The notes under the pieces are model-generated. The model saw nothing but the letters and a program-made list of their open reading frames with translations. It made no database searches and had not been told where the DNA came from. The translations under genes and the position numbers were made by a program. From NCBI GenBank assembly GCA_947625905.1, contig CANQQJ010000003.1, positions 55,992 to 119,991 of the forward strand: a stretch of DNA of 64,000 nt. Direction: 5' to 3'. Positions 28,641 to 64,000 of this stretch are shown here, piece by piece. Origin of the DNA: an uncultured Clostridia bacterium (GTDB taxonomy: Bacteria; Bacillota; Clostridia; Monoglobales; Monoglobaceae). Within the stretch, counting starts at the first letter, position 1. The number at the start of each line of letters is the position of its first letter.

Positions 28641-29156
28641 TTAAAATACCTCCCCTTTAATATAATAACGATCCTGTTCCCATTTAAACAAATTGGTATC
28701 TATATAATTCCATATCCTTTCATACTCTTTTTCATTGCGTATCATATGATCATGATAAGAACACTGCCATAATGATATTCCCGTCTTTTTATTCGTAAAC
28801 CTTTTAAGCATTGACACAAACGACGGCACTATCTCATTCGTAGGGGACGGCGCCCCCGACGTCCCGCTCTTGTTATCGTTTTCAACAATCAAAATCATAT
28901 GAACATGATTCGGCATAACTATGTATTTATCTATTTTCACGCTTTCATAAATCTCTCCGGCTTTTCTTATTTCATCGTCAACAATTTTACCGAGCGGAGA
29001 CGAATCCATTTCAGGGACGTCGAGGGCGCCGTTCCCTACAACCACTTTTCCTAAAATACACTTTTTATCCTTTGTGCATATGGTTATAAAATACGCGCCG
29101 CTTTGAGAATAATTATAATACTTAAGTCTGTTTCGTTTTCTTGATTTGAATTCCAT
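28641..29156 (-). CDS. REP-associated tyrosine transposase (RAYT, Y1_Tnp/IS200-like)
   Basis: This 171-aa HUH-family single-strand DNA nuclease has the start region RKRNRLKYYNYSQSGAYFITICT, the metal-binding MPNHVHM (HVH at residues 84-86), FQ-like 'LWQCSYHDHMIRNEKEYERIW' and the catalytic-region NYIDTN (Tyr about 151). All key residues are present, so it is likely active. It begins on the base after the punA stop and ends on the base before luxS ATG, with no clear ribosome site of its own, so it depends on translational coupling. Codons 40-48 and 98-106 are two inverted copies of the GTAG+hairpin repeat found between genes elsewhere in the window. RAYTs are single-copy, non-IS relatives of IS200 transposases that bind and mobilise REP sequences. 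Confidence 0.93.
   Translation of the reverse strand: MEFKSRKRNRLKYYNYSQSGAYFITICTKDKKCILGKVVVGNGALDVPEMDSSPLGKIVDDEIRKAGEIYESVKIDKYIVMPNHVHMILIVENDNKSGTSGAPSPTNEIVPSFVSMLKRFTNKKTGISLWQCSYHDHMIRNEKEYERIWNYIDTNLFKWEQDRYYIKGEVF
28840..28865 (+). repeat. REP-like copy inside RAYT (inner, inverted)
   Basis: GTAGGGGACGGCGCCCCCGACGTCCC differs by one base from the intergenic copy at 63931-63956. The stem is GGGACG/CGTCCC. In the RAYT sense it encodes GTSGAPSPT (codons 98-106). Confidence 0.85.
29014..29039 (-). repeat. REP-like copy inside RAYT (outer)
   Basis: On the minus strand GTAGGGAACGGCGCCCTCGACGTCCC differs by one base from the intergenic copy at 63931-63956. It encodes VGNGALDVP (codons 40-48) and faces the 28840 copy, with the HUH motif between them. 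Confidence 0.85.
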
Positions 29157-29969
29157 TTATAACTTATTTATTATAACTTTTAATAATCTCATCAATTTCT
29201 CGCGGATCACGGGCTCGGCGCTGTCTATCGCTTCGCGGTTGAAACCGCCGCCCTCGATGCCCGCCGCCATGTTGGAAACGCCCGAAAGCGCCAGGATCCG
29301 CACTCCGCAGTGCGCCGCCGCTATGACCTCGGGCACGGTGGACATGCCTACCAGATCTGCGCCCAATATTTTAAGCATTTTTATCTCCGCGGGCGTCTCA
29401 AACTGAGGCCCCGCCATATACGCGTACACGCCCTTCGGGAGGCTGATTCCGAGCTCATCCGCGCATTTTTCGCAAAGCTCGATCAGGCCCTTGTCGTAGG
29501 CGTTTGTCATGTCGAAAAATCTCTCGCCCAGCTCCTCGGGATTCTCGCCCCTTAAGGGCGACTCGGCGCACAGCTTTATGTGGTCGCGTATTATCACTAT
29601 ATCTCCCGGGGCGCAGTCGGGATTGACCGCGCCCGAGGCGTTTGTGAGAATAACCGTCTCGATATCCATCGCCTTGAGCATACGGATAATAAACGCGGTC
29701 TCCTCCATGGTGTAGCCCTCGTAGTAATGAAGTCTGCCCTGCATGAACACGACGGGCGTTCCGTCGAGCTCGCCTATCAACATACGGCACTTGTGGTGAT
29801 TTCTGCCGATCGGAGGAAAGCCGGGTATATCTCCGTACGGTATTATTGTTTTGTTGTCGAGACTGTCCGCCAGCTCGGCCATGCCCGTGCCGAGCACAAC
29901 GGCAATTTCTGGCGCAAGGGTTATTTTTGAATTAACGTATTCCGCGGCTTTAGTGTATGATGTTGACAT
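29157..29969 (-). CDS. punA: Purine nucleoside phosphorylase (PunA type)
   Basis: This 270-aa enzyme phosphorolyses inosine or guanosine to base plus ribose-1-phosphate. It shows VLGTGMAELAD (phosphate loop), GRLHYYEGY, ILTNASGAVN, YAYMAGPQFETPAEIKML, GADLVGMSTVPEVIAAAH and LSGVSNMAAGI. These are typical of the trimeric, mammalian-type PNP family. The ribosome site is AAAGGAGAACCACC. It lies 105 bp after purL with a REP-like hairpin between, and its stop abuts RAYT. In this operon it salvages hypoxanthine and may act on inosine derivatives made by MtaD. Confidence 0.93.
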   Translation of the reverse strand: MSTSYTKAAEYVNSKITLAPEIAVVLGTGMAELADSLDNKTIIPYGDIPGFPPIGRNHHKCRMLIGELDGTPVVFMQGRLHYYEGYTMEETAFIIRMLKAMDIETVILTNASGAVNPDCAPGDIVIIRDHIKLCAESPLRGENPEELGERFFDMTNAYDKGLIELCEKCADELGISLPKGVYAYMAGPQFETPAEIKMLKILGADLVGMSTVPEVIAAAHCGVRILALSGVSNMAAGIEGGGFNREAIDSAEPVIREKLMRLLKVIINKL

Positions 29970-63854: not shown

Positions 63855-64000
63855 TAATTAGTGATTAGCGAATAGCGATTAGACGGGCGGCCGAGGTCGT
63901 CCGCCCCTACGGCATTTTGTGCACCATGCCGTAGGGGACGGCGCCCTCGACGTCCCGGCTCGCCCCTTGGGGGCGATGGTTGCCGGTGGCAACCGCTTAT
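63855..64000. repeat. REP-like repeat mosaic at right end
   Basis: Contents are 'attagtgattagcgaatagcgattag' (also in the 15.0-15.1 kb gap), GGGCGGccgaggtcgtCCGCCCCTAC (63884-63910), and GTAGGGGACGGCGCCCTCGACGTCCC (63931-63956), which is one base away from each of the two copies inside the RAYT gene. CGCCCCTTGGGGGCG and GGTTGCCGGTGGCAACC hairpins follow. No gene is visible; the element continues beyond the window. Confidence 0.85.

Follow-up and report, generated by a model that had tools for sequence, protein, structure and literature searches.

In the E. coli REPtron (TnpAREP of subclass 2.2, PDB 4ER8), the REPs flank the transposase gene, and the characterised TnpAREP acts on one strand of single-stranded DNA (ssDNA), recognising the REP and not the iREP (PMC8266576). 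E. coli residues W94, Q95, E100, H101 and R104 lie in the region of GTAG recognition (PMC6006769). In TnpAREP of subclass 2.4 (Bertels group 4), found in Cyanobacteria or Bacteroidetes, cognate GTAG REPs are inserted in frame inside the tnpAREP genes between HuH and Y, in the loop between β3 and αC, and the genes are also REP-flanked (Quentin et al. 2018, PMC6006769). REPINs and BIMEs contain a pair of inverted REPs of the same type (PMC3116915), and intragenic REPs and Rickettsia palindromic elements are palindromic repeats read in frame within genes, scattered over unrelated genes at variable sites (PMC3733652).

The clostridial RAYT (REP-associated tyrosine transposase) gene analysed here shares with E. 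coli TnpAREP the HUH-Y1 fold, the putative GTAG-reading residues and the stem-mismatch form of the hairpin, but here the REPs lie inside the gene. With subclass 2.4 it shares NHxH, WQ and in-frame, presumably cognate GTAG REPs, one of which (hereinafter designated the right copy) occupies the corresponding β3-αC loop. It differs from subclass 2.4 in having a second REP (the left copy) upstream of the HUH motif, between β1 and αA and facing the first, in the co-variation of the two copies, in its tyrosine motif (YI[DE]TN[PL] rather than YIxNNP), in its occurrence in Clostridia and in that flanking REPs are mostly absent. Like REPINs and BIMEs, the gene holds two inverted REPs of one type, but these are separated by ~150 nt of coding sequence and the unit was not found dispersed. 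In contrast to intragenic repeats in unrelated genes, the REPs keep two fixed sites in the gene of their presumed cognate enzyme across many genera. An earlier note on this DNA was aware of no description of internal REP pairs, which holds in part: in-frame REPs have been known in subclass 2.4 since 2018, and the upstream copy, the fixed facing pair and the co-variation appear to be new. No description of these, or of persistence without dispersed REPs, was found in the papers compared, among them the main text of PMC6006769. The reading that we favour, and consider fairly probable on the sequence comparisons below, is that the RAYT gene embeds its own cognate REP substrate as a facing, GTAG-outward pair around the HUH motif, kept by selection on the hairpins.

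The window RAYT gene and its two internal REPs

The features discussed lie in a stretch of 64,000 nt (hereinafter designated the window) of a 2.96-Mb genome:

28182..28640, minus strand: luxS gene, directly after the RAYT stop
28641..29156, minus strand: RAYT gene, 171 aa (ORF, NF047646, 4ER8)
28692..28706, minus strand: catalytic Y151 and metal-ligand N155 (YIDTN), by alignment to 4ER8 YIYINP
28737..28769, minus strand: putative GTAG-reading segment, W130-Q131 ... D136-H137 ... R140, aligned to 4ER8 IWQ...EHAIR
28840..28865, plus strand: right internal REP, GTAGGGGACGGCGCCCCCGACGTCCC, codons 98-106 (GTSGAPSPT), GTAG on the template strand
28896..28916, minus strand: HUH motif MPNHVHM (from the translation), between both internal REPs
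29014..29039, minus strand: left internal REP, GTAGGGAACGGCGCCCTCGACGTCCC, codons 40-48 (VGNGALDVP), GTAG on the coding strand
29157..29969, minus strand: purine nucleoside phosphorylase (PNP) gene; the RAYT begins directly after it
63885..63910, minus strand: REP of another family, GTAGGGGCGGACGACCTCGGCCGCCC, paired with the copy at 63931-63956, GTAG inward, 20-nt spacer
63931..63956, plus strand: dispersed intergenic REP of the same family as the internal pair, one of 31 exact genome copies

The sole NCBIfam match of the window RAYT is NF047646 REP_Tyr_transpos (E 7e-15; 55.2 bits, under the curated cut-off of 80), a model that also matches 54/54 aligned relatives, and the nearest PDB structure is E. 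coli TnpAREP 4ER8 (profile E 1e-11; fold E 1e-7). The RAYT hallmarks, namely an HUH motif, a single catalytic tyrosine and the Y---N metal ligand, are all present; M81, P82, H84 and H86 of the HUH region, as well as Y151 and N155, are invariant in 54 homologues. The subclass 2.4 motifs NH[IFV]H and WQ occur as NHVH and LWQ, and YIxNNP is absent, the window protein having YIDTNL, with L where most relatives have P (consensus YIDTNP). By alignment, W130, Q131, D136, H137 and R140 probably correspond to the E. coli GTAG readers. Copy number is low: the genome has one further RAYT of this kind, which shares 44% identity with the window protein. Across 28641-29157 the RAYT start abuts the PNP stop and the RAYT stop abuts the luxS start, with zero spacer.

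The earlier note's description of the locus is borne out throughout: both internal 26-mers lie at the positions, strands and codons listed above, each differs by one base from the copy at 63931-63956, they bracket MPNHVHM, and all three copies fold as ssDNA into a GTAG foot followed by an imperfect hairpin (−6.7, −9.5 and −9.6 kcal/mol) with a six-pair stem, a mismatch and then two more pairs. Three window copies within 3 mismatches are far above chance (0/100 dinucleotide shuffles). The left internal REP carries one G>A change, which costs one stem pair and is uncompensated. In an AlphaFold2 model of the protein (pLDDT 80.5), the left-REP residues form a loop that joins strand 36-39 to strand 49-52, ahead of the first core helix. 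The right-REP residues fall in a disordered loop (95-106), so that the pair is predicted to occupy two loop-coding positions around the HUH motif.

REP families in the genome

Pattern searches, the source of all copy counts, confirm that the presumed REP target is a genuine REP family: the 26-mer has 31 exact copies in the genome (reversed control 0), a number well in excess of expectation, and 60 copies lie within 3 mismatches (reversed control 0), among them those of a sister family, GTAGGGGACGACGACCTCGGCGTCCC, with about 20 members. The second RAYT of the genome (L032) carries a second REP family in its right site, and an identical REP, GTAGGGGACGACGACCCCGGCGTCCC, lies in the window at 14823-14798. 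Copies of a third family, GTAGGGGCGGATAATATCCGCCC, are present in the window at 30012-29990, 24747-24725 and 24710-24688; no RAYT of the corresponding type was found in this genome.

Thirty of the exact copies were examined together with their surroundings. Two pyrimidines precede GTAG in 30/30, and about half have the CTAC of an opposite REP 20-21 nt away, the GTAGs pointing inward across a spacer with a consensus near GGCATTTTGTGCACTATGGTC. These dimers are often heterotypic, the partner frequently coming from another REP family. None of the 30 has RAYT-derived flanks, and none belongs to a dispersed left-to-right unit of the REPIN style. With its different orientation and spacer, the internal pair is thus not merely an enlarged dispersed dimer. 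No REP flanks the window RAYT within 500 bp, and a cognate REP lies within 500 bp of the RAYT gene in only 16/93 homologues.

Conservation of the pair among homologues

RAYTs were gathered from 100 related genomes and from 80 loci in GTDB species genomes, and 97 homologues, nearly all from Clostridia and many from MAGs, were kept once redundant genes and fragments had been removed. Under a detection scheme that demanded Watson-Crick pairs at the foot, GTAG-hairpins were found at the left site in 80/97, at the right site in 85/97 (matching the subclass 2.4 trait of an in-frame REP between HuH and Y) and at both in 72/97, always in the same two places with GTAG outward and with a GTAG-to-CTAC span of median 194 nt (range 176-266). 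The hairpin sequence itself varies between genomes, for example GTAGGGGCGATTCACGAATCGCCC, GTAGGGCAGGGGCTTGCTCCTGCC, GTAGGGACAGGCGTCCTCGACTGTCC and GTAGGGAACGCCGCCCTCGGCGTTCC. The pair is not indispensable, since 25/97 genes are without one or both strict hairpins and the left copy in the window has an uncompensated stem change.

When every codon was redrawn synonymously, the counts became 2.8 (left), 2.45 (right) and 0.2 (both), which rules out chance plus coding constraint as the source of the pair. That the conserved V-G ... P and S-P-T residues should merely resemble REPs is hardly credible: V40, G41 and P105 are indeed nearly invariant, but recoding destroys the hairpins with all amino acids kept, and the left site encodes 54 different nonapeptides. 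Third codon positions within the REPs are moreover frozen (0/16 variable, against 54/151 elsewhere; Fisher p=0.0016, six genus orthologues). What the homologues share is thus hairpin nucleotides and not amino acids alone, as expected of real REPs conserved as hairpins.

The two copies of a gene also resemble each other far more than they resemble those of other genes, with a mean left-right identity of 94% within and 65% between genes. The summed within-gene match was reached in 0/2000 permutations, a comparison that ignores tree structure. Left-right covariation extends beyond protein distance (partial Mantel r 0.89, 0/999, with phylogeny corrected only roughly), and left and right changed in concert in 6/7 informative cherries. 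Within this clade the hairpin sequence is free to change, always as a matched pair.

Variant feet were observed in some cases. At the right site of L081 a tandem, in-frame duplication of the REP has the altered feet GTAC and GTAT, and many dispersed copies with a GTAC foot are present in G013 and G021.

Selection on the DNA hairpin

Stem pairing was analysed in the 26-nt hairpin class, comprising 40 distinct left and 42 distinct right hairpins. All 40 left and all 42 right hairpins retain the six outer pairs as well as pair 12-19 (G-T being counted only at 12-19), and three or four pair types occur at 7-24, 8-23 and 9-22. Left and right stems of the same gene differ in 17 compensated and 3 uncompensated cases, alongside 47 loop differences.

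The earlier note had also raised the possibility that the mRNA folds on these hairpins for autoregulation, either through the fold itself or through binding by the protein. The transcript does contain both hairpins, and ISPpu9, an IS with REPs as its insertion sites, is reported to control expression of its transposase through mRNA 5′-UTR structure and sRNAs (PMC8450116). However, the right copy preserves its GTAG foot and the 11-20 mismatch in the template-strand sense, i.e., in the orientation of a DNA REP, and G-T (in RNA, G-U) pairs are absent at stem pairs 8-10 among the distinct hairpins. Both features fit ssDNA better than mRNA, and ssDNA is the substrate form of the characterised TnpAREP; RNA-level autoregulation is accordingly disfavoured and appears improbable. 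The internal pair is best read, from the pattern of substitutions, as kept by selection acting on DNA hairpins, which would mean that such hairpins are selected within an open reading frame at a cost to the encoded residues.

Dispersed REPs in other genomes

The earlier note had presumed the 26-mer to be the target of the RAYT, and the distribution of copies agrees with this: the internal REP type is that of a dispersed family, and these REPs appear to be cognate to the window RAYT. The REP of the window RAYT type has 13-54 copies in five genus-mates that carry this type and 0-12 in genus-mates without it. A genome of another genus (G032) has 67 copies, and in two Ruminococcus flavefaciens isolates the respective internal REP type is present in the genome 27 and 8 times. 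In G028 and G031, by contrast, neither the internal REP type nor even its first 11 bases are present outside the RAYT (assemblies 81-84% complete). The left and right stems in these two genomes are nonetheless intact and identical, and their loops have diverged. A flood of REPs as the only cause of the pair is thereby ruled out for G028 and G031, where the pair is no by-product of a dispersed population and needs none for its upkeep.

These genomes bear directly on whether the REPs simply landed in tolerant loops and are kept alike only because the genomic REP population continues to supply copies by transposition or gene conversion. Such passive insertion would fit the predicted loops encoded at both sites, the in-frame REPs already known in unrelated genes (PMC3733652), the shorter left loop without a REP in distant relatives and the abundance of dispersed copies in many of the genomes. 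It is difficult to reconcile with intact, identical stems where donor copies are lacking, with the compensated left-right differences within a gene, which are unexpected from conversion, and with the fixation of both positions across several families of the class, and we consider it rather unlikely. Some of the left-right identity could have arisen by gene conversion among the copies.

Possible roles of the embedded pair

If, as we favour, the gene embeds its cognate substrate, the window RAYT would recognise a GTAG-hairpin in ssDNA, by likeness to E. coli TnpAREP, and on that analogy it may bind and cut its internal copies; action of the nuclease on its own gene, one of the possibilities named in the earlier note, is a plausible prediction. 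The left REP would be recognisable on the coding strand and the right REP on the template strand, so that either strand, once single-stranded, would expose one substrate. We further infer a role in cis for the embedded pair: the copies would hold nuclease and substrate physically together, so that a REP family travels with its enzyme, they would seed dispersed REPs, and the linkage would let enzyme and REP shift specificity jointly, presumably to the benefit of the cell or the element.

A more specific proposal, which we consider unlikely, is that the pair evolved as a self-target, through which the RAYT would restrain or shut off its own action or pass a new REP specificity on to its progeny; enzyme, substrate and off-switch would then be one DNA stretch. 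More broadly, an embedded substrate bears on how RAYTs and REPs stay matched and on why bacteria retain RAYTs. From each such gene one could then read the specificity predicted for the encoded protein, and dozens of natural pairs would allow a direct test of how enzyme and substrate co-evolve.

Mobility, decay and origin

The RAYT lies between PNP and luxS in five species. The PNP-luxS junction has no RAYT in G004, G005 and G006, and in species without the gene it is compact, which would fit insertion of the gene as a whole; in G004, a RAYT sits instead between rpmF and der. The G002 junction contains other sequence whose start resembles that of the occupied site, possibly a scar, and this genome still has 12 REPs. 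Relative to empty sites, occupied sites have gained the complete RAYT gene; the borders of this DNA lie near the start and stop codons, outside the REPs. This placement bears on whether the left and right copies bound a mobile unit that spans the HUH-coding part, as a large REPIN or a pair of transposon ends would. The inverted, GTAG-outward arrangement and the constant span are what such a unit would display, but the acquired DNA extends beyond the REPs, no examined dispersed copy has RAYT-derived flanks, and the dispersed dimers have inward GTAGs and short spacers, which makes this reading very improbable.

Two forms of decay were observed. In G007 (L037, G007:C12) and G011 (L036, G011:C5), the frame of the PNP-luxS RAYT is broken by ~93 bp of another sequence, which sits in the loop of the right REP and resembles a stretch found beside dispersed REPs; REP counts in both genomes are still high despite the pseudogenised RAYT. 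At rpmF-der in G003 (L195, G003:C7) and G011 (L196, G011:C21), a RAYT remnant of ~50 codons stops a few bases past the left REP and is directly followed by the ribosome-binding site of der, so that what was once an internal copy now stands alone as an intergenic REP. The conjecture of the earlier note that REPs arose from RAYT coding DNA gains weak support from this remnant, which left a lone REP in two sister species. Against it, dispersed copies are without RAYT flanks and often form a different dimer with GTAG inward, and most were therefore not copied out as a left-to-right unit.

The pair is not a general trait of all RAYTs, with 0 pairs in 24 RAYTs of other groups. Distant relatives (other Bacillota groups, Leptolinea, Spirosoma) have about nine residues fewer at the left site and no REP there. 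Among 18 distant same-group RAYTs of a phylum-wide sample, the right hairpin occurs in 6, and the left site gave one match, an AT-rich GTGG of doubtful value. The absence of a left REP from distant relatives, some of which have a right REP as subclass 2.4 does, suggests that the left copy was the later gain, acquired in frame in a clade of Clostridia, after which the matched pair would have formed.

Plasmid, phage and viral collections yielded few relatives, among which MT839559 has a perfect pair. This 4.8-kb contig (L146, MT839559.1), labelled bacteriophage and derived from human faeces, carries a RAYT with two identical internal REPs, GTAGGGGCGGCATATATGCCGCCC.
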